Assembly (NCBI RefSeq): GCF_022919115.1 | Contig: NZ_CP095072.1 | Span: forward strand, 1,426,001-1,490,000 | Direction: 5' to 3' | DNA from: Gracilibacillus caseinilyticus | Lineage (GTDB): Bacteria; Bacillota; Bacilli; Bacillales; Amphibacillaceae | DNA length: 64,000 nt | Shown here: positions 5,328 through 22,640 of the stretch, in pieces | How positions within the stretch are numbered: the stretch's first letter is position 1 | Layout of the letters: every line of letters starts with the position of its first letter | Program-made: the position numbers and the translations under genes | Notes under the pieces: generated by a model | The model's database searches: none | Seen by the model: only the letters and a program-made list of their open reading frames with translations | What the model was told of the DNA's origin: nothing

Positions 5328-5427
5328 AGATGTTTTTTACTGAATTATAAAAGTATACGTTGAGAACGAATCTTACTTGATGGTATCTAACGATTAGTGA
5401 ATTATTAGAAAAAACTAATCCATTTAA

Positions 5428-5456: not shown

Positions 5457-5496
5457 AGCTATTAACAATACTATAAGTGAGTTAGGAGAAGATATC

Positions 5497-6213: not shown

Positions 6214-6238
6214 GCGAGCAAAATAGTAGATAGATTCG

Positions 6239-6538: not shown

Positions 6539-6554
6539 AGGTAGCGATTCTTTT
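6521..6554. terminator. Bidirectional terminator
   Basis: AGAATCGCTACC (6521-6532) pairs perfectly with GGTAGCGATTCT (6540-6551), followed by TTTC. It serves the plus-strand ORF ending at 6538 and the small minus-strand ORF ending at 6560. Confidence 0.85.
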
Positions 6555-6559
6555 CTTTA

Positions 6560-6682
6560 TTATTCTCCACGGTCATCCGGTTTTATAATCACTTTTCTAA
6601 CAAACCAAACAGCTGCTGCTAAAAATACTAGTGTAGTGATGACGACAACCACCGTGAGCAGGGTACCTTCCAAGTTTATCAT
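6560..6682 (-). CDS. Putative 40-residue membrane peptide
   Basis: Minus-strand ORF of 40 residues, MINLEGTLLTVVVVITTL followed by VFLAAAVWFVRKVIIKPDD. It has a single membrane helix and a positive-inside tail. It ends just before a good terminator. No strong ribosome-binding site is visible, so the call is tentative; function unknown. Confidence 0.35.
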   Translation of the reverse strand: MINLEGTLLTVVVVITTLVFLAAAVWFVRKVIIKPDDRGE

Positions 6683-6690
6683 GGTAGACT

Positions 6691-7233
6691 AATTGTACCG
6701 TTGAATGGCACGTTCTATGATCTCCATCACATTTTGCAAAAAGCCTTTAATTGGACAGATTCGCATCTTCATGAGTTTCATCTTTATCAGCAAAAGGTAT
6801 CTTTTTTAGATGATTATTATTTACCGAAGGCAGATTACCTGCTTGTATCAAATGAGGAAGCTTTTGCTTATCAACAAGACGGACAATCTATGGAATATGT
6901 CGATCAAGTTGTGTTAGGAGAAGCCTTGGAACAATTTAAGAGCATCGCTTATACCTATGACTTAGGAGATGTATCGAAGTCGAAAAGCGGATTGAAGCGT
7001 TTGATTCACGTTATCCAGTCTGCTTGGAGGGTGAGGGAGCAACACCCCCAGAAGATGTAGGTGGAATGCCTGGCTATAGTGAATTTTTAGAAATTATCAC
7101 ATCAAATGATCATCCAGACAAGGAACGGATGTTAAGTTGGGCAAAATCTGCAGGGTATCGTCCTTTTGATAAGGAATGGGTGAATGAACAGCTTAGTAAA
7201 GCGGGTAGAACTCGACAGGCTTATCCATTATGA
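6691..7233 (+). pseudogene. Plasmid pRiA4b ORF-3-like protein, broken
   Basis: Remnant of a pRiA4b ORF-3-like protein (small alpha/beta protein of unknown function). Frame 2 gives LIVPLNGTFYDLHHILQKAF, matching the family start region, and runs to YTYDLGD (about 6970). The family sequence then resumes in frame 1 as IEVEKRIEAFDSRYPVCLEG and PPEDVGGMPGYSEF, and ends QLSKAGRTRQAYPL. Between YDLGD and IEVE the conserved 'DDWxH' is lost, so a small deletion plus frameshift sits at about 6971-6977. The extreme N-terminus is also missing. Confidence 0.75.
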
Positions 7234-7485
7234 TGAGAATGTTATGGACGCTTTAATGTAAAGAGAAATGACAGTCATTTAATAAATGAAAACCTCTTCT
7301 TTATCATTTAAAAATGGGATGAAGCGTTTGAAGCAATATTTTAATGATGGGTGCTTCAAACGCTCAATGATAGGAAAGTAAGGATTTACTGTTGCATTTA
7401 GTGGAAGGTTTTTGAGTGACCTTGCCACTAACAGTAGTGAGGTCTATTATCATGCAGAAAAGCGATGATATTTTAATTCATAAAA
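7234..7485. other. Intergenic region
   Basis: About 250 bases with no gene. GAAGCGTTTGAAGC (7322-7335) and GCTTCAAACGCTC (7351-7363) form a stem that may be a terminator for the converging genes. Confidence 0.35.
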
Positions 7486-8376
7486 TCAGAAAACATTCTG
7501 ACTAAGTGAAATAAATGTATTTAATAGAGGGGTAAGTTTTTTGTCTTTATGCCAAGAAAGAAAGTGGGAAATTTCATGTTCTTTTACTTGTGATAACGGT
7601 AGAATCGTTAATTCACCGTTTTCCACTTCTCTTTTCACAACTTCATAGGGTAGTAAAGCTATACCTAGATCAGACTTTACACAATTTTTTAATGTTTCAA
7701 TATTGGTGATTTCGAACGTAGAATTAAATTTAATTTGGGAGTTGTGAAGCATACCTTCTAATAACTTTCTGTAGGAGCATCCTTTTTCCGTTAAAATAAG
7801 TGTTTCTTCAATTAAGTCTTCCAGTTTAGGGTTTTCAATGTTCGTGGCTTTATTGGCGGGAGAAGCTACTAAAACTAAGTGCCCTTTGGATAATTTGGAA
7901 ACCTGCAAGTTATTTCTTTCTTCCATACCCTCTCCGAATATAAAAGCAAAATCCATTTCTCCTGATTGTAACTCAGACTGAATATCAGATAATTTATGAA
8001 CAGGTTTAATGATTACCTTCACATTTGGGAATAACAATTTTAATTCTTTTAGCACGTCAGGAATTTTATAAGTGCATTGACTTTCTGTTGCCCCTACAAT
8101 GATGGTACTAGTCATATCCTTATCGTAATTTATCTCTTCCATTGCCGATTGGTATTGGGTAATGATCGCATCCGAATATACTCTGAATCTTTCTCCGAAC
8201 GGGGTTAGCACTAATTTGTTTCCCAGCCGCTCAAACAAGTTAACGCCGAGCTCTGTTTCTAAGCTTTTGATATGAGACGTTACGCTTGATTGCGCATAAT
8301 TTAGAATTTCAGCACTCTTGGTGAAATTCAACGTTTCACTGGCAACCTGAAATGTCGATAATTGCTTCATATCCAT
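7486..8376 (-). CDS. LysR-family transcriptional regulator, probable regulator of the carrier-protein cluster
   Basis: 296 residues. An N-terminal winged HTH is visible (residues 1-60, with SSVTSHIKSLETELGVNLFE), followed by the LysR substrate-binding domain (TIIVGATESQCTYKIPDVLK and later SDLGIALLPYEVVK). LysR proteins are dimeric or tetrameric, bind a T-N11-A site and respond to a small ligand. It is divergent from lysW, with 135 bases between the starts, the usual arrangement for a regulator of the neighbouring operon plus autoregulation. The start is fixed by GGAGGG nine bases before the ATG. Ligand unknown; a pathway intermediate is plausible. Confidence 0.9.
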   Translation of the reverse strand: MDMKQLSTFQVASETLNFTKSAEILNYAQSSVTSHIKSLETELGVNLFERLGNKLVLTPFGERFRVYSDAIITQYQSAMEEINYDKDMTSTIIVGATESQCTYKIPDVLKELKLLFPNVKVIIKPVHKLSDIQSELQSGEMDFAFIFGEGMEERNNLQVSKLSKGHLVLVASPANKATNIENPKLEDLIEETLILTEKGCSYRKLLEGMLHNSQIKFNSTFEITNIETLKNCVKSDLGIALLPYEVVKREVENGELTILPLSQVKEHEISHFLSWHKDKKLTPLLNTFISLSQNVF

Positions 8377-8467
8377 CGATTTTTCCCTCCTATCATCATT
8401 TCCGATTCATACCATCGATTTTTTCATCTGGTGTACAGATACATATTACCATAAAATGTAGTTGCAC

Positions 8468-8480
8468 ACACAAAATGTGT
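8468..8480. promoter_or_regulatory. Inverted repeat in the lysR-lysW intergenic region
   Basis: ACACA-AAA-TGTGT (8468-8480) is a perfect dyad in the 135-base divergent region, 32 bases before the lysW start. It is a candidate operator for the LysR protein; no experiment or comparison supports it yet. Confidence 0.4.
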
Positions 8481-8511
8481 AAAAAATAATAAAAAATAGG
8501 AGGAATGTACG

Positions 8512-8685
8512 ATGAAGAATGCTAATTGTCTGGTATGTCAGTCTGCTATTGAGGTCGAAAATGAAGCTTTTGTGGGAGAAATTGTGGAATGCTCTGATTG
8601 TGGCGAAGAGCATGAAGTAGTGGAAGCAAACGGATTGTTAACACTTGAATTAGCACCTGAAATTGAAGAATCATGGGGCGAATAA
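8512..8685 (+). CDS. lysW: LysW-type amino-group carrier protein (AmCP)
   Basis: 57 residues. Zinc-ribbon cysteines C6xxC9 and C27xxC30 with His34, a very acidic surface, and a C-terminus EIEESWGE in which the terminal Glu is the residue whose side-chain carboxylate is ligated to the alpha-amino group of the substrate. Standard LysW ends EDWGE; here it is ESWGE. AGGAGG precedes ATG 8512. In Thermus and Sulfolobus the carrier protects the amino group during lysine or arginine synthesis, and in Streptomyces related carriers serve specialised metabolism. It is the first gene of the overlapping operon and is followed immediately by its ligase. Short enough to be missed by routine gene calling. 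Confidence 0.93.
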   Translation: MKNANCLVCQSAIEVENEAFVGEIVECSDCGEEHEVVEANGLLTLELAPEIEESWGE

Positions 8686-8689
8686 TGTC

Positions 8690-9565
8690 ATGGAAATCTT
8701 AATGTGTGTAACGAGGCTGAGAGAAGAAGAAAAAATGATCATCAGCGAATTAAACAGAAAAAATATAGAGGTCAAGGTCATCTTAGATTCTATGAGTCTG
8801 CCTTTGGATGATATATTCAACCAAAAGTATGACCTTGCTATTATCCGTTGTTTATCTCAAATAGAAGCAAAGAAAAGGGCCCATATTTTAGAGAAAGCGG
8901 GATTAAGAACAATGAACACTTCTGCTTCCATCAATGTATGCACAGATAAGATTCTGCAAGCATTATTATTTCAACAGCATGATATTCCTCAACCAAACTA
9001 TAAAGTTGCCTTTCAGCCTGGAGATTTAACAGATAGCCATATTCAATTCGGGGATACATTTTTAATTAAACCGGCAACGTCTTCATGGGGACGAGGTATT
9101 TGTCTGATCGAAAATCAACGTTGTCTAGATGCCTGGATAGCAGCGCGAGAATCATTAGATGTCAAAAATAAAGAGTTTCCTGTTATTGCGCAGGAATTCA
9201 TTAATAAAGGAAACTTTGATATCAGGGTAGTCATTATTGGCTCTTTCCCTGTCGTTGCTTTTAAGAGAGTATCTAATGAATCTTGGAAAACGAATACACA
9301 TTTAGGAGCATCCGTTGTACCTATAGCTATTGATAAAGAGATTCACGAATTAGTAAATAAAGTGATAGATGCAATGGATTCAGGCGTATATGGATTAGAT
9401 TTATTGTATGACTTTACACAAGAAAAATATTTAGTTTGTGAAATTAATCAAAATCCGGAATTTGCACAATCCTTCAAAGAGCATAAAGTCAACATCCCAT
9501 TTTTACTTGCTGGTTACGTAGAAGATGTCATTGGCCAAGATAGAAAGGAGAAAGTATATGGATAA
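8690..9565 (+). CDS. lysX: LysX-type ATP-grasp ligase (charges the carrier protein)
   Basis: 291-residue ATP-grasp ligase of the LysX/RimK group. It joins the alpha-amino group of an amino acid (glutamate or aminoadipate) to the C-terminal Glu of LysW using ATP. Visible: FLIKPATSSWGRGICLI (ATP-grasp lysine and small loop), VIAQEFINKGNFDIRVVIIG, and the metal-binding end YLVCEINQNPEFAQS. Length is normal for LysX (~280). ATG 8690 is four bases after the lysW stop, so translation is probably coupled; the frame opens earlier (8663) but that would overlap lysW. With no aminoadipate pathway nearby, glutamate is the likelier substrate (inference). Confidence 0.9.
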   Translation: MEILMCVTRLREEEKMIISELNRKNIEVKVILDSMSLPLDDIFNQKYDLAIIRCLSQIEAKKRAHILEKAGLRTMNTSASINVCTDKILQALLFQQHDIPQPNYKVAFQPGDLTDSHIQFGDTFLIKPATSSWGRGICLIENQRCLDAWIAARESLDVKNKEFPVIAQEFINKGNFDIRVVIIGSFPVVAFKRVSNESWKTNTHLGASVVPIAIDKEIHELVNKVIDAMDSGVYGLDLLYDFTQEKYLVCEINQNPEFAQSFKEHKVNIPFLLAGYVEDVIGQDRKEKVYG

Positions 9566-10199
9566 AAACATGCGATTTCAAATCTCTTTTGTTTTATCCA
9601 GAGTCTTAAACTCTGGGATTATCATGAGTATCGAAAAGAACGAAAAGGAGATCAAAGGTCTCGAAAATGCCATTGCTAAAATCACGAAATTACCTTATGT
9701 ATCCACCTTTAATAGTTATACAGGCGCCCTGCATGGAGCCTTGCAAGGTAACGATATTGGCCATGGAGACTTCGTTACATTATCCAATACGACAGACCAG
9801 GAAGAAAAATTTATTGATTGGCTTGGTATAACCAATCAATATGCGATGGAGCAGGACACCTTTGAGCGGTTTTCGGTAAATTGGGAAAATATTGGAAGCT
9901 TTGAAGAGGATCTTCAGCAACCATCCACTTTAGTATTGGACTTCACAGAATTAGGATTTGGGCCGTGTGCATTAATGGCAACGGAGGACAACAGAATGTG
10001 GGAGAAAGCGGAAAGATTAAAAATTTTTGGCGCCTTTGACCTAAGAACGATGTGGACACAAGAGGAGAGTCACCCGGATTTACAGCCTGGTATTCAGTTT
10101 AATTATCGAATCAGTCCGTTAGTCGCTGCCTGTGCGAAATTATCTTTATTAAAAAGAGGTGAGATGGTTGAGAACAGATTTTTTGCAAAAACCACTTGA
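9558..10199 (+). CDS. DegT/DnrJ/EryC1-like protein lacking the PLP lysine
   Basis: 213 residues that follow the DegT aminotransferase fold in outline: LENAIAKITKLPYVSTFNSY-TGALHGAL resembles the N-terminal cofactor-phosphate region, and FNYRISPLVAACAKLSLLK resembles 'NyRmsdlqAA'. The central part with the catalytic Lys is shortened, and GFGPCALMATEDNRMWEKAE stands where the Lys loop is expected, so it is probably not itself a transaminase. It may be a partner subunit of the normal DegT enzyme encoded next. GGAG seven bases before ATG 9558; overlaps lysX by 8 bases and the next gene by about 30. No close family known to me. Confidence 0.65.
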   Translation: MDKNMRFQISFVLSRVLNSGIIMSIEKNEKEIKGLENAIAKITKLPYVSTFNSYTGALHGALQGNDIGHGDFVTLSNTTDQEEKFIDWLGITNQYAMEQDTFERFSVNWENIGSFEEDLQQPSTLVLDFTELGFGPCALMATEDNRMWEKAERLKIFGAFDLRTMWTQEESHPDLQPGIQFNYRISPLVAACAKLSLLKRGEMVENRFFAKTT

Positions 10200-11487
10200 T
10201 TTCCCGTCTGAAGAAATGGTGTTCGAGAGTCTGGCTTATTTTGGAGGAGAACCCGTATTACCGTATGATAATCGGAAGACGAATTTTCCGTACATTACAA
10301 AAGAAGATGTTATGCAAATGCTAATTTCGATCCAACATGAGCCGAATAACGTGATTAATGAGTTTGCAGAAAAGTATAGAAAGTACGTTGGGGCAAATTA
10401 TGCCATTCCTACAGCAAGTGGAACTTCGAGCTTACATCTTGCTTTAGTTGGGGCGGGAGTGAAGCCGGGGGATGAAGTGATTATCCCTAATTTCACCTTC
10501 ATCGCGACAGCGCAGGCTGTGGTAGCAGCTAAAGCTATCCCAGTCTTTACAGACATTGATCCGGATTCTTATTGCATGGATGTTTCTCAAGTAGAGGCAC
10601 TCATAACTGATCAAACAAAGGCCATTATGCCCGTTCATGTTCATGGTCTGCCGGCAGATTTACCTGCCTTGCAACAAATCTGTGATAAATATGAATTGAA
10701 GCTTGTGGAAGATGCTTCCCATGCTCATTCCGCTTCGATTCACGAACAGATTTGTGGCTCCATAGGAGATGCAGCAGGGCAAAGCTTAATGGCTGATAAG
10801 AATTTTCCAGTAGGAGGAGAAGGTGGTATGGCCTTCTTTAAAAAAGAAGAAGACTATCATCGTGCCTTAGCATTTTTAGAGGATTCGGGGATTGATTATA
10901 GCATGTCTTGGATTGCTGCTGCTTTTGGAGTCAGTCAGTTGGAAAGACTGGCCTATTATGATGCAGTAAGAGCACGTAACGCAAAGTTGTTAAGTGATGC
11001 GTTAGAAAAGACGGAATTATTCAGCCCTCCCTATGTGCCGGATGGATTCAACCACAGCTATAATATGTATCGCATCAAGCTAAATCCTGCAAAGAAAGGC
11101 TTGGATGATCTGGAGGATTATAAAGTGAAAGAAGCGATACAACAACTGATCATGGAGGAAGGTGTTTTTGCAAGGGAGTGGCAAAATAGACCAATTCCGG
11201 GTCATCTTCCGTTTCAGAATAAGAAAGGATTTGGAAATCAGTATCCGTTCTGCCTAAGCGATACGGATCGAAAATACCAGATCGAGGACTATCCGAATAC
11301 GTTAGCTATGTTTCGGAACACTTTAACTATTTGTCGGGAGCTGCGATCTCCTATAGAGTATGAAAGAATTCAATCTTATGCACTAGCATTTCAAAAAATT
11401 GACCAAAATCCAGATAAGATTAGAAAAGTTGCTGAAGAACTCGATGCTATTCAACCTCCATATGAAAGGGATGCAAGATTAGGATGA
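10168..11487 (+). CDS. DegT/DnrJ/EryC1-family PLP aminotransferase
   Basis: About 439 residues. PLP-dependent sugar/keto-acid aminotransferase of the DegT class: YAIPTASGTSSLHLALVGAG (cofactor phosphate site), GDEVIIPNFTFIATAQAV, VEDASHAHSA (Asp pairing with the PLP nitrogen) and LMADKNFPVGGEGG, where the Lys is the expected Schiff-base residue. Members transfer an amino group, usually from Glu or Gln, to a ketone. In this cluster the expected ketone is the product of the transketolase on the carrier. TTG 10168 follows AGAGGTGA by four bases; GTG 10159 is an alternative start. Overlaps the reductase gene by ATGA (11484). Confidence 0.88.
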   Translation: MRTDFLQKPLDFPSEEMVFESLAYFGGEPVLPYDNRKTNFPYITKEDVMQMLISIQHEPNNVINEFAEKYRKYVGANYAIPTASGTSSLHLALVGAGVKPGDEVIIPNFTFIATAQAVVAAKAIPVFTDIDPDSYCMDVSQVEALITDQTKAIMPVHVHGLPADLPALQQICDKYELKLVEDASHAHSASIHEQICGSIGDAAGQSLMADKNFPVGGEGGMAFFKKEEDYHRALAFLEDSGIDYSMSWIAAAFGVSQLERLAYYDAVRARNAKLLSDALEKTELFSPPYVPDGFNHSYNMYRIKLNPAKKGLDDLEDYKVKEAIQQLIMEEGVFAREWQNRPIPGHLPFQNKKGFGNQYPFCLSDTDRKYQIEDYPNTLAMFRNTLTICRELRSPIEYERIQSYALAFQKIDQNPDKIRKVAEELDAIQPPYERDARLG

Positions 11488-12524
11488 AAACAAAAATCAA
11501 AGTTGCTATTTTAGGTGGCAGTGGATTTGTTGGCATGGAAATCTATCGAATATTAAAAAATCAACCTGAAGTATCCATCGAATTTGTATCTTCTGAATCA
11601 TTAGCCGAGCAATCGGTAGAGAAATATTATCGTGTTCTGAACAGCAAAAATCGGCAGTTGAAATTTAAGCCTGTTCATGAACTTCCGCACGGATTTGATG
11701 TCATATTTTCGTGTCTTCCAACCGGCGTCTTGCCTACTTATATTGATGACATCAAAGCGAAAGCTTTAATCGTTTTTAACGTAAGTGGAGATTTTAGACT
11801 GAAAGAACTTGATCAGCTTGAGAAATATTACCCCCAATCACTTAAATCAGACAGTTATTTAGCATCACAATACTTTATTCCCGAATTTCATCAAATAGAT
11901 CGAAATGCAAAAATAATAAACTTGCCAGGCTGCATGGCAGTAGCGAGTATCTATTCTCTCTACCCACTTGTGAAGCATCAATTAATTGAAAACAGAGTAG
12001 TCATTGATGCAAAAACAGGGTCTAGTGGAGGAGGAAAGAAATCTTCTGAAACGCATGCAGAGAGAGCTCACAATATACGTCCTCATAAGGTTCACGGTCA
12101 TAGGCATCAGCCTGAGATTATTCATGCCTTTCGAGATATGTGTGGAGCAGATCTGGAAGTGCAATTTTCTACATACAGCTTAGATTTACCTAGAGGTATC
12201 ATGGTGACCGCTTATTCGCAATTAAAAGAAAACATTTCGGAATTAGATGTCAAACGGTCATTTTACGGTGATTTTAAGCAATTGACTTTTATCGATTACT
12301 TAAAAGATAGTGGTGGACGATTTAATCCGATGATCAAATCCACTGCTGGCACGAACAGAGTGGAAGTGGCGGCCTACGTAGATGGAAAGAACTGTGTATC
12401 CATCTGTACGTTGGATAACATGATCAAAGGGGCTGCCGGACAGGCGATCCAAGCCTTTAATCAGTTTTTTGACTATCCAGAGTACCAATTTCTTCACTTT
12501 CAGAATGAAGGGATGTGGCCATGA
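11484..12524 (+). CDS. lysY: ArgC/LysY-type reductase (carrier-bound acyl phosphate to semialdehyde)
   Basis: 346 residues, N-acetyl-gamma-glutamyl-phosphate reductase family. Rossmann start KVAILGGSGFVGMEIYRILK, catalytic Cys in INLPGCMAVASIY, family segment DAKTGSSGGGKKSSE and the His of HGHRHQPEIIHAF. Enzymes of this type reduce the gamma-acyl phosphate of Glu (or delta of aminoadipate) with NADPH; in a LysW context the substrate stays on the carrier. It overlaps the previous gene by four bases (ATGA, 11484-11487) and the next one likewise (12521-12524). The terminal aldehyde would be the acceptor for the transketolase encoded downstream. Confidence 0.9.
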   Translation: MKTKIKVAILGGSGFVGMEIYRILKNQPEVSIEFVSSESLAEQSVEKYYRVLNSKNRQLKFKPVHELPHGFDVIFSCLPTGVLPTYIDDIKAKALIVFNVSGDFRLKELDQLEKYYPQSLKSDSYLASQYFIPEFHQIDRNAKIINLPGCMAVASIYSLYPLVKHQLIENRVVIDAKTGSSGGGKKSSETHAERAHNIRPHKVHGHRHQPEIIHAFRDMCGADLEVQFSTYSLDLPRGIMVTAYSQLKENISELDVKRSFYGDFKQLTFIDYLKDSGGRFNPMIKSTAGTNRVEVAAYVDGKNCVSICTLDNMIKGAAGQAIQAFNQFFDYPEYQFLHFQNEGMWP

Positions 12525-14401
12525 TTAGTCCGTTGTATGTAATAAAAGTAGGGAGCAGTACCGTTCTATCTCCAGACAACACGGTATACAAAGAAGTGAA
12601 AAGACTATCGGAGAAAGGTAATAAGATCTTGCTTGTTGCAGGAGGAGCCAAAGGGATCGAGGAGTACTATCAAACGATACAGAGAGAGGTCACATTTTTA
12701 GAGTTGAACAACGGAAACCAAGCGAGATACTGTACCACGGAAGAAATGAATCATATTCACGATGCTTATCAGCAAGTGATGATTCCTGCTCTGACAAATG
12801 GGTTACGGGATCAAGGGTTAAAAACGTTCGTGCAATGTGCAGGTGACCAAGGACTGGTCTTAGGGAAACAAGGCCCACCGCTTAAGGTTGTGAAAGAAGG
12901 CAAGAAAGGGATTGTGAGAGATTCCCTGTATGGCAACTACGATTCCTGTGACAAGTTGTTGATGGAGTCGCTGCTGGATCATTATGATGTCGTTTGTTTA
13001 ACGCCGCCGATACAGAATGCAGCCCATTCCCAGCAGTACCTGAATATCGATGCGGATATGCTGGCAGCCCATCTGGCTATAGCAATGAACGCTCATCATT
13101 TGCGTTTTGTTACAGGAACGAATGGATTGCTTCAGGACGTGGATGATCCTGATTCTACGGTCAAGGATATTTATTTGGACGATCCATTGGATTATGTACA
13201 AGGAAGAATGAAGCAAAAAGTTAGAGCTGCTCAGTCAGCTATACGTCTAGGTATCTGTGATGTAGCTATTATGGGACCGTCTATGTCACACGCTCAATCC
13301 TCATGGTTTTGGGGTATGGAGGACGCCGACAATAGCTATGATTTAATGAACAAAGTCGTACGAATTCCTTCCGTTTCTCATAACGAAGAGGAGCTCACCC
13401 AATATCTGTTGCATCACATTCAGATCCCTGGTGTAATCAACGCTGTAGATCGTGCGGGAAACATCGTCTTTGAAAAAGGGGATGGTGATCATACCCTGTT
13501 GTTATTAGGGCACGTAGATACGGTTCCGCATTTATGGAAGGTGCAAAGTGATGAGACAACCATCTCAGGGAGAGGGGTTGTCGACGCGAAAGGGTGTTTT
13601 GTGAATTTTGTGCAGATGCTGAAGGACGTACAGGTCCCAAATAACTGCAAATTAAAAGTAATTGGCGCTGTTGAAGAAGAGGTATCCTCCTCGGCTGGTG
13701 CCTATTATGTGAGGGATCATCACTCAGCAGACGCCGTTATTATTGGTGAACCGAGTGGGCAAAATAATCTGACGCTAGGCTATCATGGATTGCTTAAGTT
13801 AGGAATCACGATAAACAAGGGTCAAAAACACAGTGCTTCGAGAGATAATGTGAGCGTTGCTGATCAGTTTTTTATGATTAAAGAAGAGTTAGGAGACAGG
13901 ATGAAGGATATAGATCCTGATCATGTGGCCACTACCACAAGGATTAATCAATATAAAGAAGAGGACAGGGATGTTTTAAAAGCAATATTGAATTTCAGAA
14001 TATCTCCAGGTGTAAGGGAAGACTATGCCCGTCAATTGGACTTAAGCGTGTCGGAAGAGATTACGATTGATGTCCTAAGAGCAACACCAGGGTTTATCAA
14101 CAAAAGAAACTGCTCATTAGTAAAATCATTCGCAAAGAGTTTTGCGAACCAAAAGGTAAAGTGTAAATATTTAAAGAAGACAGGAACAAGCGATATGAAT
14201 ACACTGGCAACAACCTGGACAGATGTACCGATTATAGCGTATGGACCAGGAGATTCTAATCTTGATCATACCAATCAAGAGTTTCAAACCTATAGTGAAA
14301 TCGATCAATCCAGGATTATATTAAAAGATGCAATAGAGAACTGGTTTTCTAGAGTGACGGAGGTGGAGAAGCGTGCTTATCGACAAAGAGTTAGCCAATG
14401 A
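12521..14401 (+). CDS. Fusion of LysZ-type kinase and LysK-type M20 hydrolase
   Basis: 626 residues with two enzymes in one chain. Residues 1-265: amino-acid kinase (LysZ/ArgB type; IKVGSSTVL start, LLVAGGAKGIEEY, VTGTNGLLQDVDDP, MKQKVRAAQSAI), which phosphorylates the side-chain carboxylate of the carrier-bound amino acid. Residues ~275-620: M20 metallopeptidase (LysK/ArgE type) with all metal ligands in place: LLGHVDTVPH, GRGVVDAKG, GAVEEEVSSSAGAY, IIGEPSG and the late His in NLDHTNQE; it would release the finished product from the carrier. LysZ and LysK are separate proteins in the systems I know, so the fusion is unusual. ATG 12521 overlaps lysY by ATGA. Confidence 0.88.
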   Translation: MISPLYVIKVGSSTVLSPDNTVYKEVKRLSEKGNKILLVAGGAKGIEEYYQTIQREVTFLELNNGNQARYCTTEEMNHIHDAYQQVMIPALTNGLRDQGLKTFVQCAGDQGLVLGKQGPPLKVVKEGKKGIVRDSLYGNYDSCDKLLMESLLDHYDVVCLTPPIQNAAHSQQYLNIDADMLAAHLAIAMNAHHLRFVTGTNGLLQDVDDPDSTVKDIYLDDPLDYVQGRMKQKVRAAQSAIRLGICDVAIMGPSMSHAQSSWFWGMEDADNSYDLMNKVVRIPSVSHNEEELTQYLLHHIQIPGVINAVDRAGNIVFEKGDGDHTLLLLGHVDTVPHLWKVQSDETTISGRGVVDAKGCFVNFVQMLKDVQVPNNCKLKVIGAVEEEVSSSAGAYYVRDHHSADAVIIGEPSGQNNLTLGYHGLLKLGITINKGQKHSASRDNVSVADQFFMIKEELGDRMKDIDPDHVATTTRINQYKEEDRDVLKAILNFRISPGVREDYARQLDLSVSEEITIDVLRATPGFINKRNCSLVKSFAKSFANQKVKCKYLKKTGTSDMNTLATTWTDVPIIAYGPGDSNLDHTNQEFQTYSEIDQSRIILKDAIENWFSRVTEVEKRAYRQRVSQ

Positions 14402-15188
14402 TATGTCCAAGACAGTAGAAAGACAGGAGGCTCTATCGAAGAAGACTCGAGAAGCCATTATAGATATTGCAGCAACAGAGACGGGGTGCCACATAGGAGG
14501 AAGCCTATCGGTTACCGATCTGCTAATCGCATTATTTGAAAAGTATATGGATGATAGCCGCAATCAGGTAGTACTTAGCAAAGGGCATGCTGCTGCTGCA
14601 TTGTATTCCGTTCTTTATGTGTTAGGTATATTGGAAAAGAATCCAGCAGAGAGTTATGGAAGAAGTGATTCTTTATTGACGGGACATCCCAATCATAAAA
14701 TCAAGGGAATTCCGTACTCTACAGGGAGTCTTGGACACGGCATCCCCTATGCAGCGGGATGGGCATTGTCTCAGAAATTAAAAGGTTCTGCAGGTATTGG
14801 GGTAGCTGTTTGTGGAGATGGCGAACTCCAGGAAGGGCTTTGCTGGGAAACGTTTCAAGTTGTTCAGTCAAAGCAGATCGATAATTTTTTATGTGTAGTT
14901 GATTGTAATGGTGGCCAAAATGATGGATTTGTTCACCATATTTCCCCGATAGAAGACGTAAGAGGGCGGTTCGAATCATTTGGATTTCAAGCGATCGAAA
15001 TTAACGGCCATGACTTCAGGGAAATAAGAGAGGCTTTACTTGCGTTTGAGGCTTCCTCAAAGCCTTTTGCCATTATTGCCAATACGGTGAAAGGTAAAGG
15101 TGTGCCGGATATTGAGGGCAACCCGAAGGCTCATTATGCTAAAATCCCTCATCGATTAAAAAATAAGTGGAAAAGGAGTATGGTATGA
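14373..15188 (+). CDS. Transketolase, N-terminal (ThDP-binding) subunit
   Basis: 271 residues covering the first domain of transketolase: GCHIGGSLSVTDLLIALFEK, VVLSKGHAAAALYSVLYVLG, GSLGHGIPYAAGWALSQ and the ThDP/metal motif GDGELQEG. Transketolases move a two-carbon ketol unit; split enzymes are common in specialised pathways. The GTG at 14373 has GGAGGTG seven bases upstream and overlaps the previous gene by 29 bases; an in-frame ATG at 14403 is the alternative. In vazabitide-type AmCP clusters a transketolase extends the carrier-bound semialdehyde by two carbons, the role proposed here. A housekeeping pentose-phosphate role is unlikely inside this operon. Confidence 0.9.
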   Translation: MLIDKELANDMSKTVERQEALSKKTREAIIDIAATETGCHIGGSLSVTDLLIALFEKYMDDSRNQVVLSKGHAAAALYSVLYVLGILEKNPAESYGRSDSLLTGHPNHKIKGIPYSTGSLGHGIPYAAGWALSQKLKGSAGIGVAVCGDGELQEGLCWETFQVVQSKQIDNFLCVVDCNGGQNDGFVHHISPIEDVRGRFESFGFQAIEINGHDFREIREALLAFEASSKPFAIIANTVKGKGVPDIEGNPKAHYAKIPHRLKNKWKRSMV

Positions 15189-16114
15189 CGTTATCAGGTC
15201 GTGATACTTACCGAGATGAATTGACCAAAATAGCCGAAGACGATGATCGTATTTTATGTTTAGAAGCAGATTTGGGAGGAAAGAACCACCAATTTGAGTC
15301 TCAATTTCCGGATCGTTTTTTCAATATGGGTATTGCGGAAATGACAAGTATTGATATGGCTGCTGGATTGGCGGAAGCTGGGTTTATTCCTTTCTTCTCG
15401 ACTTTTGCCACGTTTGCTTCTCTCCGTTCAGCGGAAAGTATTAAGTTAGCAATGGGATATATGGAAAAGAACATTAAAATTATCGCGCCATACGGAGGTG
15501 TTTCTGGAGGCTGGTTTGGAACAACCCACCATTCATTAGAAGATATTGGGGTAGTGAGGACATTTCCTAACATTAAGATTGCTTGTCCGTATGGAGAAGA
15601 AGATACCAGACGGGTTATTCGGGAGGCTGTTTCTTCTCCTCATCCTTACTATGTTCGGTTGTCTCGAAATGAGTCATTTGTCAGCTTAGATAGAGACGAT
15701 GATCAAGCAACTATACCTCTCGTGAACCAGAAAGGAAACGGAAATCTTTGTTTACTATCTATTGGTGAGCAAGGAACAGAATTGTGTAAAAAAATACAGG
15801 AAGCATATCCTGAAATATCTCATGTTCATCTGTGTTATATCGATCAAGTAAGTTTAAGAAATAGTATTGCGCAGTTAGAAGAGCATGGAAATACGTTCTT
15901 AGTGGTCGAAGAACATCGGTTAGCGGGTGGGACTGCTTCTTTGCTAGCTGTCCTGATGCCGGATAATCGTGTCTATTCTTTTGACTGTGGAGAAGAATGG
16001 CCGGTATATGGTGGTTCTCATCAAGAAACACTTGCATATCTGGCATTTGACTATGAAGCATTGGAAGAAAAAGTGAAAAATCTATTAAGTGAAGGAGCTG
16101 AAGTGAATTGGTAG
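15185..16114 (+). CDS. Transketolase, C-terminal (Pyr) subunit
   Basis: 309 residues, second half of transketolase: RFFNMGIAEMTSIDMAAGLA contains the catalytic Glu that activates ThDP, followed by IIAPYGGVSGGWFGTTHHSL, the SSPHPYYVRLSRNE segment and a C-terminal domain (TFLVVEEHRLAGGTASLLA). GGAG six bases before ATG 15185 and a four-base ATGA overlap with the N-subunit gene argue for equal production and a heteromeric enzyme. Together the two chains equal one normal transketolase (~580 residues, slightly short). Confidence 0.9.
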   Translation: MTLSGRDTYRDELTKIAEDDDRILCLEADLGGKNHQFESQFPDRFFNMGIAEMTSIDMAAGLAEAGFIPFFSTFATFASLRSAESIKLAMGYMEKNIKIIAPYGGVSGGWFGTTHHSLEDIGVVRTFPNIKIACPYGEEDTRRVIREAVSSPHPYYVRLSRNESFVSLDRDDDQATIPLVNQKGNGNLCLLSIGEQGTELCKKIQEAYPEISHVHLCYIDQVSLRNSIAQLEEHGNTFLVVEEHRLAGGTASLLAVLMPDNRVYSFDCGEEWPVYGGSHQETLAYLAFDYEALEEKVKNLLSEGAEVNW

Positions 16115-17343
16115 ATCAAAAGGTGGTAGCTTTTGTAGAACCAAGCTTCTATGGCGTTGATTTTGTAGAACGCACACACAGAAAAGGATGCAAAGTAATC
16201 GCAATCGGTTCATCTCTAGACAATCCTAAAAAATACAACTATGAAACATTTTATGATGATTTTTTAGTTGCTGATATTCGAAATCCACAGTCCATTTATC
16301 AGGCAATCAAGCAATCACCTTATTATGGGAAATTAGATGCTTTGATTCCTGCGACAGACTATGCTTCTCACTATACAGCAGAAGTGGCTGAGTGGCTATC
16401 GTTACCGACGATTCCCTCCTTTGCTGCATACAATGCCAGAAATAAAGATTTAGCACGTAAAGCGTATAGAGATAATCATGTACCGAGCGCACAATATGCT
16501 AAAGTAGCAAACTATGAGGAAGCCTGTCAAGCTGCTTCCAAGATTGGCTATCCGGTTGTCGTCAAGCCAACAAATTGTGCGAGTAGTCAGGGAGTCTTTT
16601 TTATTAATAATGAAGAGAAATTGCGAACTGCTTTTCAAAAATTAAGAGAGTTCAAAAAAACGTATATGGGCTTTGATGTAAGTACGGACTATTTAGTAGA
16701 GGAATATTTAGAGGGACCTGAATTTAGTGTGGAGCTATTTCTGAAGGATAAAGAAGTGGTTTTTTCATCCGTCACAGAGAAAATCACTTCCGATTTACCT
16801 TATTTTGTGGAAATTTCACACACCGCTCCTACGTCCAGCCAGGAAGACAGAGTAGAAGAAATGATTAACGTGAGTGTTCAGGCCATGTTAGCAATAGGCA
16901 TCGATAATGGCCCTAGTCATGTGGAAATAAGGTTAACCAATACAGGTCCGAAAATTATAGAGGTGAATGGCAGGCCTGGTGGTGATAATATCGCCTCTCA
17001 ATTACTTTTTAACACATATGGCCTCGACATTTTTGAAGAAACGGTTAATTTTTATTTGAACTTACCAATTAAAGATACTTTCCCCGTCCAAAAGGCAACA
17101 TCGATTGCATTCCTCACCTCAAGACAAAATGGACAGATTTCGTCAATAGAGGGAATGGAGCATATAAAAAATGATGCATCCGTCATTAAGTATGACATTA
17201 GTGTCAATCCAGGGGATACAGTAAAAATTCCTGAAAGTTCAGATGATCGATTAGGCTATGTGATAACAACAGGGGAAAACGCGAAAGAGGCAAAAAGGAA
17301 AGCAATGGATTTAATCAATTCCATTCAATTAGTTTATCAGTAG
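16108..17343 (+). CDS. ATP-grasp carboxylate-amine ligase
   Basis: 411-residue ATP-grasp enzyme related to L-amino-acid ligases and carbamoyl-phosphate synthase-like ligases. Seen: PVVVKPTNCASSQGVFFI (ATP-binding loop), YLVEEYLEGPEFSVELFLKD, PSHVEIRLTNTGPKIIEVNG and RPGGDNIASQLL (metal-binding Asn and conserved RPGGD). It probably activates a carboxylate as acyl phosphate and couples it to an amine, for instance the released diamino acid with another amino acid. TTG start at 16108 overlaps the transketolase stop by seven bases; AAGGAG lies ten bases upstream. Last gene before the operon terminator. Substrates are not predictable from sequence. Confidence 0.85.
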   Translation: MVDQKVVAFVEPSFYGVDFVERTHRKGCKVIAIGSSLDNPKKYNYETFYDDFLVADIRNPQSIYQAIKQSPYYGKLDALIPATDYASHYTAEVAEWLSLPTIPSFAAYNARNKDLARKAYRDNHVPSAQYAKVANYEEACQAASKIGYPVVVKPTNCASSQGVFFINNEEKLRTAFQKLREFKKTYMGFDVSTDYLVEEYLEGPEFSVELFLKDKEVVFSSVTEKITSDLPYFVEISHTAPTSSQEDRVEEMINVSVQAMLAIGIDNGPSHVEIRLTNTGPKIIEVNGRPGGDNIASQLLFNTYGLDIFEETVNFYLNLPIKDTFPVQKATSIAFLTSRQNGQISSIEGMEHIKNDASVIKYDISVNPGDTVKIPESSDDRLGYVITTGENAKEAKRKAMDLINSIQLVYQ

Positions 17344-17349
17344 TTCTAC

Positions 17350-17385
17350 AAAACCCCAACATTCATAAGCGTTTGTGGGGTTTTT
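17350..17385 (+). terminator. Terminator of the carrier-protein operon
   Basis: AAAACCCC (17350-17357) pairs with GGGGTTTTT (17377-17385), with inner AAC/GTT pairing across the loop and a T tract on the plus strand, seven bases after the stop of the ATP-grasp gene. Confidence 0.85.
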
Positions 17386-17395
17386 CTATTTTACA

Positions 17396-17654
17396 CGTTA
17401 GGAAAGGATAAAATGTTAGCAAGGAAGAAGCTCGACGTAGTGAAAATTTAGAGTGTACAAAACTACGCCACCCGCTCAAAGACAAGGCGAATGCCGAGTT
17501 TTTCATCATATTTGCCATCGCTTTTTCCGATGGCAGCGATTTGGATTTTCCGTTTTATCGAACAAGATTACTGTGATAGTATTTTTTGTACGTTATATAA
17601 AATGTCAGCAAGAGAGAAGCTCGCCGTAGTAATAATGTAGAAGGTACGACAAAC
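17396..17654 (+). repeat. Two imperfect ~65-bp direct repeats flanking a remnant, upstream of the MFS gene
   Basis: Copy A (17396-17464) and copy B (17590-17654) share ATAAAATGT(T/C)AGCAAG, AGAAGCTCG(A/C)CGTAGT and an AC-AAAC end. Copy B lies just before the MFS start and may hold its promoter. Between them (about 17464-17560) the minus strand reads IKRKIQIAAIGKSDGKYDEK and GIRLVFERVA then a stop, an unrecognised coding remnant. The layout suggests an insertion that duplicated or trapped the regulatory region. Confidence 0.5.
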
Positions 17655-17673
17655 TAAATGAAGAGGTGATGAG

Positions 17674-18888
17674 ATGTCGGTGTTATTTAGAAAAAGCTTC
17701 TTATTCTTTTTTCTAGCAGATATCATATCTGGATTTGGGGTAGGGATGAGTACGATTGGAGCAAATTGGTATCTCCTGGACAAAACTGGTTCTACCGGGG
17801 CTGTAGGCTTGATGTTGGCCCTTAATGTGGTGTCTGGTTTCTTAGTTTCCCCATTAACAGGAATTCTGACCGATAAATTTAATAGAAAAGTGGTCATTCA
17901 ATTAACATTTATTCTAAGAGCAGTGTCCATTGGATTGCTCACAGCTGTCTTTCTGATCGATGGGTTTGCACTTGCGTATATTTATCTGTTTGCGATCATT
18001 AATGGAGTTGGATGGAGTATTTACATGTCTGCTTCGCGAAGTCTCATTCAAGAATTATTACCAGAAGAGGAATTGTCAAAGGGTAATTCGTTAATTGAGA
18101 TCAGCTTACAGGTTGGAATGTTCATGGCAGGGGCGGCTTCTGGCTTTATTTATAAGTTTGCCGGATTCGAAACCATCCTGCTCATTAATTCCTCGATGTT
18201 TGTGATAAGCAGTTTATTTATGATTTTTGTCAAGTATCAGTCTATCCAGTTAGAAGACAAAGGGGAAGGGTATGTTCAATCCTTTAAAAAGGGTATTCAT
18301 TATTTGGCTTCCCATCGATTAACATTCCTGATTGGGTTAGTAGCCATTGTGCCATTAGTAACGACGATGATTTTCAATGTGGTGCTGCCTGAATACGTAA
18401 GTAATACGCTGAAGGCTGATTCTGTTGTTTTTGGCTTTTCAGACATGGCGTACGGAATTGGTGGCTTGATGTCAGGGTTTATCGCGGCTCCACTTGCCAA
18501 AAAGATGACAGAAAATAAAGCTATTACGATCATTTTTAGCTTATCGGTCGTGACATTAATGGGCTTATCTATTAACGTATTCGTTATTTTCATATTCCTG
18601 GGCAGCTTCTTAATTGGTTTTTCCAATTCATCGATACGAATTATTATGAATACAATGCTTATGGAGATTGTTCCAAAACCTTTAATGGGCAGAGCGATGT
18701 CGGTATGGATGGGTATTGCCTTATTACTACAAACGGTCTTTGCTGGTGGACTTGGCCTGCTTATCGATGTTTTTTCTCCAAATATAGGTTTCATCTGTAT
18801 GGGAGGATTAATGCTTTGTGGTTTAGTATTACATGTTAGTGTATCAAGGAGTAAGAAGAAAGAAAAATATAGCTATGAGGTGGTTTAA
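17674..18888 (+). CDS. MFS exporter (MFS_3 / macrolide-enterobactin exporter type)
   Basis: 404 residues with about 12 membrane helices and the MFS motif GILTDKFNRKVV after helix 2. Proton-driven exporters of this subgroup move siderophores, antibiotics and other small products outward. GAGGTGATGAG precedes ATG 17674. The next gene starts at the stop codon (TAAATG), so the two are cotranscribed. Although separated from the ATP-grasp gene by a terminator, position and direction suggest that it exports the product of the cluster or gives self-protection (inference). Confidence 0.87.
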   Translation: MSVLFRKSFLFFFLADIISGFGVGMSTIGANWYLLDKTGSTGAVGLMLALNVVSGFLVSPLTGILTDKFNRKVVIQLTFILRAVSIGLLTAVFLIDGFALAYIYLFAIINGVGWSIYMSASRSLIQELLPEEELSKGNSLIEISLQVGMFMAGAASGFIYKFAGFETILLINSSMFVISSLFMIFVKYQSIQLEDKGEGYVQSFKKGIHYLASHRLTFLIGLVAIVPLVTTMIFNVVLPEYVSNTLKADSVVFGFSDMAYGIGGLMSGFIAAPLAKKMTENKAITIIFSLSVVTLMGLSINVFVIFIFLGSFLIGFSNSSIRIIMNTMLMEIVPKPLMGRAMSVWMGIALLLQTVFAGGLGLLIDVFSPNIGFICMGGLMLCGLVLHVSVSRSKKKEKYSYEVV

Positions 18889-19458
18889 ATGAAGCTTGGC
18901 GTCATCTATGGAAGTATGAGAGAGAACGGAAACACGGCACGTTTAACGGAAGAAGTCATTAAACATTTACCAGATGTCACGGAAGTGGATCTAAAAAACT
19001 ATGAGTTCAAAGATATTATTGACCAAAGACATGACGAAGGTGGATTTGACCGAGTCGATGATGAGTATGATCGTATCATTGATCAAATCATAGATTGTGA
19101 TGTTTTAATCTTTTCGACACCTATTTATTGGTATGGGATGACTAGTGTGATGAAGCGGTTTATTGATCGTTGGTCGCAAACGGTAAGAGATGATAAGTAT
19201 CCGGATTTTAAAGAAAAAATGGGGCGAAAACAGGCTTATATTATTGCGGTTGGGGGAGATAATCCCCGCGAGAAAGGTCTCCCACTCGTACAACAGTTTA
19301 CTTATATCTGTCAATTTATCGGATTGCAATATAAAGGATATGTATTAGGGAAAGCGGCGAAGCCTGATGATATCTTGCAAGATGAGGAAGCGATGGAAGA
19401 TGCTTGGAAGTTGGGAAAACTATTGCGAAAAAGAGATGAAGTGGGTAATTATTTATAA
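18889..19458 (+). CDS. NAD(P)H-dependent FMN reductase / flavodoxin-like oxidoreductase
   Basis: 189 residues with a flavodoxin-like fold. FMN-binding start GVIYGSMRENGNTARLTEEV and the STPIYWYGMTSVMKRFIDRW motif are typical of the iron-sulfur flavoprotein/FMN_red family; no ferredoxin-like cysteines. It uses NAD(P)H to reduce quinones, azo or nitro groups or free FMN. It starts directly at the MFS stop codon. It could be a tailoring enzyme of the carrier-protein pathway or unrelated; the tight coupling to the exporter supports the former only weakly. Confidence 0.87.
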   Translation: MKLGVIYGSMRENGNTARLTEEVIKHLPDVTEVDLKNYEFKDIIDQRHDEGGFDRVDDEYDRIIDQIIDCDVLIFSTPIYWYGMTSVMKRFIDRWSQTVRDDKYPDFKEKMGRKQAYIIAVGGDNPREKGLPLVQQFTYICQFIGLQYKGYVLGKAAKPDDILQDEEAMEDAWKLGKLLRKRDEVGNYL

Positions 19459-19469
19459 GTAAGATCGAA

Positions 19470-19502
19470 AACACAAACGGTTTAGCGTTTGTGTTTTTTT
19501 TC
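19470..19502 (+). terminator. Terminator after the MFS-reductase pair
   Basis: ACACAAAC (19471-19478) and GTTTGTGT (19487-19494) form a stem followed by eight or more T. Confidence 0.9.
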
Positions 19503-19572
19503 TATACTTTTTAATTAGGTTAGCCTTCCATTAATACTAAACTAAAAGATAATGAAACTAACAATAGATCTT

Positions 19573-20130
19573 TCATCTTTTTTTATTTTTTTGATAGTTG
19601 GAAATAATAAGATCCTGGTACACTTCGGTCTCTTCCAAACGAAGATTATCCGGATTCTTCTTTATAATAACCGCCTGGATGTCAGAAAGGTAAAGAAAAA
19701 AATAGTTTTCAACTTCCATTATTTTTTCGAATTGACTTCATTTATAGGCATCCTTTCTCATTTCAGTTACTCTTTCAATGCCATTTTCACCAATAGTTAT
19801 CGTTTGATCTCCTAATATTCCAACAGGTTTATTTTTTTATAGAGTTGCTTATACATCAAGCATCAACATAGTTAATCAAATCCATATATGTTCAAAATAG
19901 TGAAATATGAAGACTGTAATTGCTAGAATAACAAGTATTTCATAGGTAATGATTCTTTCTTGATTTATCAATACATGACGAAATGTCCAGACTAGCATCA
20001 AAAGAAAGAGAGTGCTAGATATGAGCCATTTACAAATGGATATCAGCCTTTTGTAAAATGTAGCAGTATATAATATATTTTTGTTTAATGCGAGAACATC
20101 CTGGATGGAAATATTAAATGTTGCAATCAA
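19573..20130 (-). pseudogene. YcxB-like membrane protein, broken
   Basis: The minus strand starts at TTG 20130 after AGGAGGA and reads IATFNISIQDVLALNKNIL, then two membrane helices (ICKWLISSTLFLLMLVW, ILVILAITVFIFHYFEHIW) and a stop at 19876. The family's soluble C-terminal domain follows in another frame: KPVGILGDQTITIGENGIER, a further stop, FEKIMEVENYFFLYLSDIQA and VIIKKNPDNL, ending QKNKKR at 19573. At least two lesions (near 19790-19880 and at about 19758) break the gene. YcxB-like proteins have two helices plus this domain and no known function. Confidence 0.65.
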
Positions 20131-20132
20131 AC

Positions 20133-20318
20133 TTATTTCCTCCTTTGCTTCTTCCTCTCCACATAAAAAACAACAGCACAAACCCCAATAAAGCCAATCC
20201 CTCCAATAACCAATGCTACGACATCCGGACTCGAGGGTGGAAAGCTAAGAACAAGGGTTAACATGTTTATCGTTACTAAAAATAATAAGATCCAATGAAT
20301 ATGGCGAATGATTCCCAA
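20133..20318 (-). CDS. Small two-helix membrane protein
   Basis: 61 residues: IHWILLFLVTINMLTLVL, a short PPSSPD turn, VVALVIGGIGFIGVCAVVFY and a basic tail ERKKQRRK. TTG start 20318 with GGGAGG nine bases upstream. Its stop lies inside the ribosome-binding site of the YcxB-like pseudogene, so both belonged to one transcript. No family recognised. Confidence 0.65.
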   Translation of the reverse strand: MGIIRHIHWILLFLVTINMLTLVLSFPPSSPDVVALVIGGIGFIGVCAVVFYVERKKQRRK

Positions 20319-20504
20319 GCGTAAGACCTCCCTTATTGTATGTCGTTATTTTTAGTAAATACATGAGAATTGTCAAGGTTCTATGAACATAGTAAAATGG
20401 TAAATCTGATCAAAGTAGAAATGACTGCCAAAATAACGTATGGTTATTATAGATGGTATAATCGGATCGCATCAAACAATATATTAGAAAGTAGGGATTA
20501 ACAA

Positions 20505-21668
20505 ATGGCAGAAGATTTAACGATTCGTAAACCGATCGAAAAGATGAGACAGCATGCTGATGAAATTCTTTCACCATCCATGTCATTAACAGAAATTCTA
20601 AATAAGTATCCCAAGAAGGATTTAGATAAAATAAGAGGCAGCTGGAAATTGACGGGCCTCAGCCAATTGAAAAAAGATGAATTAGTTGCTGTGTTAGCAG
20701 AAAAAATTCCAGAAATGCTCTGGCAGAAAGCTTATTCTTGGGATACGGACCTGATGAAGCGTTTGAAGAAAGTAATCACTTTTAAAGGAAAAAATGATAT
20801 GGCGGGCATGCCATTTTTTACAGAACATTATCTATGTACGCATGGGATTATTTTTCCTGAAGTAGTGAATGGGGAAGAAGTCCTTATCTTGCCGGAGCAA
20901 CTGGAGCAATTCATCGAAGCATTGCTTGTAGATCCTGAGGTTCGTGAGATTCATAAGAGAAATAAAGAATGGCGACAACTGACGTACGGCTTATTACATT
21001 TTTACGGTACATTAGATGCCGCACAGCTGTATAAATTGCTGGAAGGGTATACCAATACAGAAATTGACGCCTATGAGCTTATGTCGGTTCTTCCAGAAAT
21101 GAATGCCTTCCATGATGACTTCATTATTGATGAACATGGCTTGTCAGATATGCTGGTGAGGGATCCGGAGCGGGTGAAGGCAGAGCATAACAAGCGGCCG
21201 GATGTAGATTTTTATCCATTTTCCAAGGCAAAATTAATAGAGGCGAACAAACCATTCTATACGGAAACCAATCAAAGTTATCGCAAATTTGTCAGCTATA
21301 TCACCAACCATTATGATATAGATAAATTGGATGCAGCTGAAATTGTCGATGAGTGTGTCATCCACATTAATTATGGCAAGAGCCTGGGTGAAGTGATGGA
21401 GTTTTTATCTGAAGCTTTCGAATTCGAAGGCAGAGATTCCCTGCAAGCATTTACTGCTCAAGTTGTGCAGCTGATGAACAACACGAGACAATGGATATTG
21501 AAGGGCCATACGCCTATGGAACTCCGAGATAAAAATGACTCAACTATTATCCCCTTTTCACAGAAAAAAGCAAAGAATAACAAAACAGTCACGAAAACGA
21601 AAATAGGAAGAAATGATCCATGTCCATGCGGCAGTGGCAAAAAGTATAAGAAGTGCTGTGGACGGTAG
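20505..21668 (+). CDS. SEC-C zinc-ribbon protein with Rho-N-like N-terminus
   Basis: 387-residue soluble protein. Residues ~20-70 ([20 protein letters not shown]) resemble a small SAP/Rho-N helical domain; the middle is helical and unrecognised; the C-terminus [20 protein letters not shown] is a classical SEC-C metal-binding motif (CxC-x8-CC), which usually mediates binding to the SecA/ribosome apparatus or nucleic acids. AGTAGGGATT precedes ATG 20505. Single gene closed by a terminator. Specific function unknown. Confidence 0.82.
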
Positions 21669-21669
21669 A

Positions 21670-21706
21670 GATTCCGATCATCTTTTTGGATGATCGGGAT
21701 TTTTTA
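21670..21706 (+). terminator. Terminator after the SEC-C gene
   Basis: GATTCCGATCATC pairs with GATGATCGGGATT, followed by TTTT. Confidence 0.88.
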
Positions 21707-22639: not shown

Positions 22640-22640
22640 T

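Follow-up and report, generated by a model that had tools for sequence, protein, structure and literature searches.

A carrier-protein operon in Gracilibacillus caseinilyticus

The genome of Gracilibacillus caseinilyticus is a single contig (NZ_CP095072.1) of 4,509,959 bases, of which we analysed positions 1,426,001-1,490,000, a stretch of 64,000 nucleotides hereafter called the window. Coordinates refer to the window unless a contig or locus is named. It holds a putative biosynthetic operon built around a LysW-type amino-group carrier protein (AmCP). In the window's list of open reading frames, nine frames within 8512-17343 overlap or lie 1-4 bases apart, in the order lysW, lysX, a DegT-like gene of 213 codons, a DegT gene, argC/lysY, a lysZ-lysK fusion (lysZK), tktN, tktC and an ATP-grasp gene. 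Genes for a major facilitator superfamily (MFS) exporter and a flavin mononucleotide (FMN) reductase follow on the 3' side, and a lysR gene is divergent on the other side. Every gene named in an earlier annotation made from the letters alone (the sequence-only reading) was found as an intact frame at the position it gave.

Profile searches assigned the genes to families, all on the plus strand except lysR. The carrier (8512-8685), with the C-terminus ESWGE, matched PF21344 (53.7 bits, cut-off 27). It is followed by a LysX/ArgX-type carrier-amino acid ligase with the motif NQNPEF (8690-9565; TIGR00768, RimK family, 178.2 bits, above 143.4), a small DegT-like protein, predicted to be one subunit of a heterooligomeric aminotransferase (9558-10199; PF01041, 30.4 bits, above 19.8) and a DegT/sugar-aminotransferase-like catalytic subunit (about 10168-11487; PF01041, 230 bits). 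The presence of this last gene was as first read and its start was corrected, probably to the TTG at 10168, which gives 439 residues, the length of most close homologues. A LysY/ArgC-type semialdehyde dehydrogenase comes next (11484-12524; TIGR01850, 261 bits, above cut-off), then a fused LysZ-type kinase and LysK-type M20 hydrolase (12515-14401; PF00696 76.8, PF01546 59.7 and TIGR01902 294 bits, above cut-offs). The transketolase is split into an N-terminal, thiamine diphosphate-binding subunit (14403-15188; PF00456, 101 bits), whose best solved match is 6yak, the N component of a split-chain transketolase, and a C-terminal, pyrimidine-binding subunit (15185-16114; PF02779, 97 bits). An ATP-grasp enzyme of the L-amino-acid ligase (LAL) type (16108-17343; PF13535 and PF18603 LAL_C2, above cut-off) closes the series, followed by the MFS exporter (17674-18888; PF07690, PF05977) and an NADPH-dependent FMN reductase or flavodoxin-fold protein (18889-19458; PF03358, PF02525). 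The LysR-family regulator lies on the minus strand (7486-8376; PF00126/PF03466), and the divergent lysR-lysW promoter region between (8377-8511) shows conserved blocks in an alignment of five clusters. Control by a riboswitch or another known RNA was rejected, as an Rfam scan of 4000-24000 gave no match at gathering score.

A core of eight genes is conserved across ten clusters

We compared ten clusters: that of the window, that of Litchfieldia alkalitelluris, three on plasmids (Pseudalkalibacillus, Staphylococcus epidermidis NZ_CP043848.1 and Streptomyces camelliae NZ_CP115301) and five from further genomes (G015, G140, G515, G757 and G659). The eight-gene core (lysW, lysX, small DegT, DegT, lysY, lysZK, tktN, tktC) stands in the same order in all ten, with lysZK fused as one frame in each. 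The LAL-type ligase and MFS exporter accompany it in nine of the ten, which are all nine of the Bacillota clusters; the FMN reductase is present in eight of ten (8/9 Bacillota), with none seen near G659. A LysR close to that of the window occurs in five clusters, its own included, with 69-94% identity in the Litchfieldia, Pseudalkalibacillus plasmid, G015 and G140 loci; the S. epidermidis and G757 clusters have a more distant one, and no LysR match was found near G515, near G659 or in the S. camelliae cluster. In L. alkalitelluris, lysX (locus 6173-7048) carries an in-frame stop that leaves frames of 95 and 178 codons, and no other translated cluster gene there has a stop. The S. epidermidis plasmid, 54 kb in size and found in a blood isolate, holds the whole set including ligase and exporter (12233-24692), its FMN reductase and MFS genes lying upstream of lysW.

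The ligase motif fits glutamate as the probable loaded amino acid

The window LysW aligned to the LysW chains of 3vpb, 5k2m and 3wwl; it scored 58.8 and 43.4 bits with two NCBIfam LysW models, both under the cut-offs of 75 and 53.2. Its terminus WGE is found in 10/10 clusters, as ESWGE in five (window, Litchfieldia, Pseudalkalibacillus, G015, G140), ETWGE in G659 and EDWGE in the rest. LysX, with 200.8 bits to TIGR02144 (cut-off 275.6), has 3vpb_A as its best solved match, and all ten clusters share the proline form of its motif, N-x-N-P-E-F. Among solved ligases the motif reads NDVPEF in 3vpb, which we take to be the glutamate-loading ArgX of Sulfolobus, NHTMEF in 3vpd, presumably the aminoadipate-loading LysX of Thermus, and NPNMEF in 5k2m, which we assume to be the dual-function enzyme of Thermococcus. 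The methionine form also occurs in a Deinococcus LysX adjoining homocitrate synthase (NHTMEF) and in an annotated Thermomicrobium LysX (NATMEF), and the proline form (NHTPEF) in the LysX of two Streptomyces AmCP clusters linked to non-ribosomal peptide synthetase (NRPS) genes. Since the window shares the proline form with 3vpb and with the NRPS-linked Streptomyces proteins, these results support glutamate as the probable loaded amino acid, in a small comparison of three solved and four fetched proteins. If 5k2m is indeed dual-function, the methionine form would still be compatible with glutamate.

The aminotransferase is predicted to have two subunits

Between them, the two DegT proteins, which are encoded side by side, matched both chains of the heterooligomeric aminotransferase solved from Serratia sp. 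ATCC 39006 / Prodigiosinella confusarubida as PDB 8Y96 (further entries 8Y97 and 8Y98). The large subunit aligned to 8y96_A with an E value of 1.5e-184; its next solved relative was Fic25 of ficellomycin biosynthesis (8gyh_B, E 5e-65), one entry of which contains an adduct of N2-acetyl-2,6-diamino-5,7-dihydroxyheptanoate (N2-acetyl-DADH). Prodigiosinella proteins P0298 and P0078, which equal the printed stretches of 8Y96 chains A and C over 102 and 196 residues, are 62% and 50% identical to the window's two DegT subunits, and a ligase homologue lies on a contig of equal size. That system, compared here by entry titles (8y96, 8y98) and sequence, belongs to an enterobacterial host, unlike that of the window; its solvers probably know the enterobacterial version.

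In the large subunit the lysine of MADKNFP is invariant in 5/5 and is presumed to bind pyridoxal phosphate (PLP). A profile comparison of the small with the large subunit aligned 58 columns only and did not fix the PLP-lysine site by superposition, so the small subunit was judged from alignment A1 alone; it has no lysine common to residues 124-145 (at most 2 of 45 rows per column). Over 29 pairs, large and small subunits co-varied with r 0.955, a value reached in none of 2000 permutations and to which the shared descent of the operon contributes. This co-variation fits a predicted complex of the two DegT proteins, in which the small subunit would most likely complete or shape the active site, dock the carrier, or both. 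A single-sequence structure of the large subunit (predicted local distance difference test, pLDDT, 34) was set aside.

Relation to known carrier-protein systems

The cluster combines the features of an AmCP secondary pathway, namely a LysW with C-terminal Glu, clustered LysX, LysZ, LysY and LysK types, and a split transketolase with DegT. The same logic of carrier, ligase, kinase, reductase, split transketolase and DegT leads to DADH in Streptomyces, for ficellomycin (Fic25, PDB 8GYH-J) and vazabitide A. Two NRPS-linked Streptomyces plasmid loci, L075 and L076, served as stand-ins for the ficellomycin and vazabitide clusters. They differ from the window in having one DegT, separate kinase and hydrolase genes, and NRPS genes; their DegTs are 32-33% identical to the large subunit and form a long separate branch. 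In both loci (L075 14884-25671, L076 7986-16572) the place taken in the window by the small DegT-like subunit, after lysX and before DegT, is occupied by an unnamed protein of 93 to 118 residues. All eight core genes are present on the S. camelliae plasmid, ordered as in the window and 35-61% identical. Unlike the window, this plasmid gave no match to the ligase, the MFS exporter, LysR or the FMN reductase within the 34.6 kb covered; a permease and a short-chain dehydrogenase/reductase follow the core instead. LysW-dependent lysine and arginine synthesis in Thermus, Deinococcus and Sulfolobus employs the same carrier, ligase, kinase, reductase and hydrolase families; the window differs in having no homocitrate branch, a proline-form LysX, a transketolase and a DegT pair. 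The window ligase has L-amino acid ligase BL00235 (3vot) as its best solved match. It is weakly related to BL00235 and to BacD of bacilysin synthesis (105 and 59-60 bits), which are of the same ATP-grasp small-peptide family, and carries the LAL_C2 domain.

No NRPS genes were found by family searches from lysR to the FMN reductase or in ten neighbouring frames of the window, nor any among the annotated neighbours of the Pseudalkalibacillus, S. epidermidis and S. camelliae plasmid clusters. Beside the G757 cluster, frames of 1805 and 254 codons were considered as an NRPS partner and rejected, as they match RHS repeats and have no NRPS domain. These negatives cover the family searches and annotations just named and leave out the flanks of the G515, G659, G015, G140 and Litchfieldia loci. 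A cluster-borne NRPS using the DADH unit, as in the vazabitide and ficellomycin kind, was thus not found in the clusters so covered.

The unit is sporadic, widespread and apparently transferable

Similarity to the window spans about 7485 to 19440 in the Litchfieldia and Pseudalkalibacillus loci, and 7488 to 19404 in G140. In the fetched sequence, the flanks of these three and of the G. orientalis locus are unlike those of the window, save for one stretch of 71 bases in Pseudalkalibacillus. From the limits common to these loci, the block from lysR to the FMN reductase appears to be what moves or is lost. The sequence-only reading had placed the cluster at 8512-19458; its gene set held and its limits did not, as the block common to loci with differing flanks spans about 7443 to 19568 and lysR therefore belongs to the unit. 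We thus take 7443-19568 as the whole transferable unit. Both flanks of G015 also match the window, which points to inheritance in place. G. orientalis keeps only pieces matching 7443-7605, 13429-14292 and 18512-19568, in other surroundings, and by its sequence is a decayed copy of the unit. Its remnant (locus 9843-11921) has the 3' end of lysR fused to an internal lysZK piece, followed by an MFS gene that is broken and an FMN reductase gene that looks intact.

A full-length LysZ-LysK fusion was found in three of 150 related genomes, the host included; besides the G. orientalis remnant, other matches reached at most 58 bits. Among 16 other genomes of the genus, one had the unit intact, one had the remnant and 14 gave matches below 30 bits or none. 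The small DegT-like subunit occurred in 3/397 genomes of the order and 4/398 of the class, and with a strong score in 2/398 of the phylum, each count including the host. The phylum search gave 11/398 matches at E 0.001, of which nine were rejected, as they score at most 26.2 bits and look like ordinary DegT proteins. A large protein collection yielded 305 small-subunit matches among 384 candidates, and source names were taken from the best 120 of the 305. Among these matches the closest named relative was from G. salinarum (94%), and the Bacillota sources were Paenibacillus (many), Kroppenstedtia, Salinithrix, Priestia, Halobacillus, Salipaludibacillus, staphylococci and Vagococcus; Prodigiosinella, Kosakonia, Chromobacterium and Streptomyces were the sources listed outside the phylum. 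One protein cluster of the small subunit, named for Staphylococcus aureus, has 129 members. The large DegT was also seen in Lactiplantibacillus plantarum (62% identical), on 71 contigs. At least 29 of the 52 listed small-DegT protein clusters whose contig reaches 100 kb share that contig with a ligase match, counted against the best 120 ligase matches; those without one, among the clusters listed, include Chromobacterium, S. aureus and all Streptomyces.

On plasmids, the small subunit was found in three of 72,556 records (Pseudalkalibacillus hwajinpoensis, S. epidermidis and S. camelliae), and there were no near copies of the cluster at the DNA level. Carriage by phages was rejected, with no small-DegT match in 50,697 phage records. 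Foreign base composition was likewise not apparent (39.5% GC in the cluster, 40.0% in the window). Just outside the cluster, at 6701-7233, two overlapping frames make up a disrupted gene of the plasmid pRiA4b ORF-3-like family (PF07929). Farther off, on the minus strand at 29163-31598, a UvrA-like ATP-binding cassette protein is split into frames of 258 and 499 codons and is probably an interrupted gene.

Proposed pathway

We propose that the unit is a stand-alone AmCP operon, which probably makes an exported dipeptide of a DADH-type amino acid. The order and chemistry of the steps rest on the functions of homologues. In the first step LysX would attach glutamate, through its alpha-amino group, to the C-terminal Glu of LysW. 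The LysZK kinase half would next phosphorylate the side-chain carboxylate, which LysY would reduce to the semialdehyde. The split transketolase would then add a two-carbon ketol unit, and the two-subunit DegT would aminate the new ketone to give carrier-bound DADH or a stereoisomer. A DADH-type product is a seven-carbon amino acid. It would be released from the carrier by the M20 half of LysZK and, before or after release, coupled to another amino acid by the L-amino-acid ligase. The MFS protein would export the product, LysR would control the unit, and a single fused protein, LysZK, would carry out both the first modification on the carrier and the release. The sequence-only reading had outlined the same logic; it is supported, at the level of sequence, by the host's own argB and lysA, the proline-form LysX, the DegT pair matching 8Y96, the relationship to Fic25 and the LAL-type ligase.

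A route to DADH through kinase, reductase, transketolase and aminotransferase has a precedent in vazabitide synthesis (passages of PMC9303977). Passages of PMC9570651 assign the same four activities to the azinomycin pathway toward DADH, with N-acetylglutamate as the starting point drawn and a carrier route as the alternative.

Several observations weigh against this proposal. LysX, LysW and both halves of LysZK fall under the NCBIfam cut-offs of LysW-pathway models, and the scheme leaves the FMN reductase without a role. Ligase and MFS are missing from the S. camelliae cluster, so the ligation step would not be universal. The DegT, at 32-33% identity, is distant on the tree from those of the two NRPS-linked AmCP clusters, so its substrate could differ. 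A frame of 2402 codons elsewhere in the genome (contig 106179-110870) has two matches to one family, presumably of the adenylation type and hence marking an NRPS-like gene, which makes an NRPS acting in trans conceivable.

Other possible functions

With MFS and FMN reductase genes adjoining the operon, its product could be a small metallophore built on the carrier, exported by the MFS protein and relieved of its metal by the reductase; we consider this improbable, as the lysR-to-FMN-reductase unit of close clusters contains no ATP-binding cassette importer or metal regulator. Equally improbable is a second alternative, in which the ligase extends the carrier-bound amino acid and the M20 domain frees a peptide, the product being a modified oligopeptide and not a simple dipeptide of free DADH. 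The ligase frame starts at 16108, inside the transketolase C frame that ends at 16114, which suggests that the two are made together. On the carrier, however, the alpha-amino group is blocked, and enzymes of the LAL type, the solved ones among them, are known to use free amino acids.

A compatible solute or osmolyte, in place of a bioactive metabolite, would suit several of the hosts, since Gracilibacillus, Halobacillus and Pseudalkalibacillus are salt-tolerant genera. This we judge slightly less probable still: the genes also occur in Paenibacillus, Kroppenstedtia, S. epidermidis, Kosakonia and Streptomyces (the large subunit in L. plantarum), they are missing from most genomes of the same genus searched, and the operon carries an exporter. 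That the genes serve LysW-dependent primary synthesis of lysine or arginine, or back it up, is very improbable despite the homologues of lysW, lysX, lysY, lysZ and lysK and an argC above its equivalog cut-off, because the genome has its own argB (1,681,796; 257 bits) and lysA (495.6 bits) above cut-off elsewhere and no homocitrate synthase above cut-off. The two homocitrate synthase matches in the genome, at 287 and 97 bits (cut-off 413.6; the remaining arginine and lysine genes were not searched), would be isopropylmalate- or citramalate-type synthases. The transketolase, DegT pair and ligase of the operon and its sporadic occurrence (intact in 1/16 other genomes of the genus) also speak against primary synthesis, as does the Deinococcus lysine cluster, where the 6.8 kb examined encode homocitrate synthase and neither a transketolase nor a DegT. 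The earlier exclusion of primary lysine synthesis was thus supported.

Significance

AmCP secondary pathways are already known in Streptomyces. As far as our searches show, the stand-alone form with a ligase and without NRPS genes is apparently new, as are the heterooligomeric aminotransferase and the kinase-hydrolase fusion within an AmCP cluster, its spread over Bacillota and its carriage on plasmids. The sequence-only reading had known of no described example in Bacilli. For the literature this stands, with no account of such a cluster in Bacilli among the matches listed from open-licence full texts; a subscription paper may exist, since the Serratia enzyme structure was released in December 2024. 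Within Bacilli the cluster itself is not confined to the window; genes for its two-subunit aminotransferase occur also in many Paenibacillus and in Kroppenstedtia, Priestia and staphylococci. Passages of PMC12272613 report, for strain SCS-8 (apparently Pseudalkalibacillus nanhaiensis), a region with 4% similarity to vazabitide A, too little for identity.

We also considered, as an unlikely speculation, that a dipeptide of a DADH stereoisomer acts like bacilysin, being exported, entering rivals through peptide permeases and there being cleaved to DADH. If so, DADH would mimic diaminopimelate or lysine and block cell-wall or lysine synthesis, and the unit would be a self-contained, transferable antimetabolite factory that has spread among Bacillota, a staphylococcal plasmid included, and reached Enterobacterales.

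Cluster finders may miss such clusters, which have no NRPS or polyketide synthase core. The form described here is compact, with a fused kinase-hydrolase, a two-subunit aminotransferase, a dipeptide ligase and no NRPS, so that about nine purified proteins should suffice for in vitro rebuilding and discovery of the product. A small molecule is predicted in Paenibacillus, in skin staphylococci and perhaps in Lactiplantibacillus, and carrier-protein secondary metabolism reaches well beyond Streptomyces, to distant bacteria and to plasmids.

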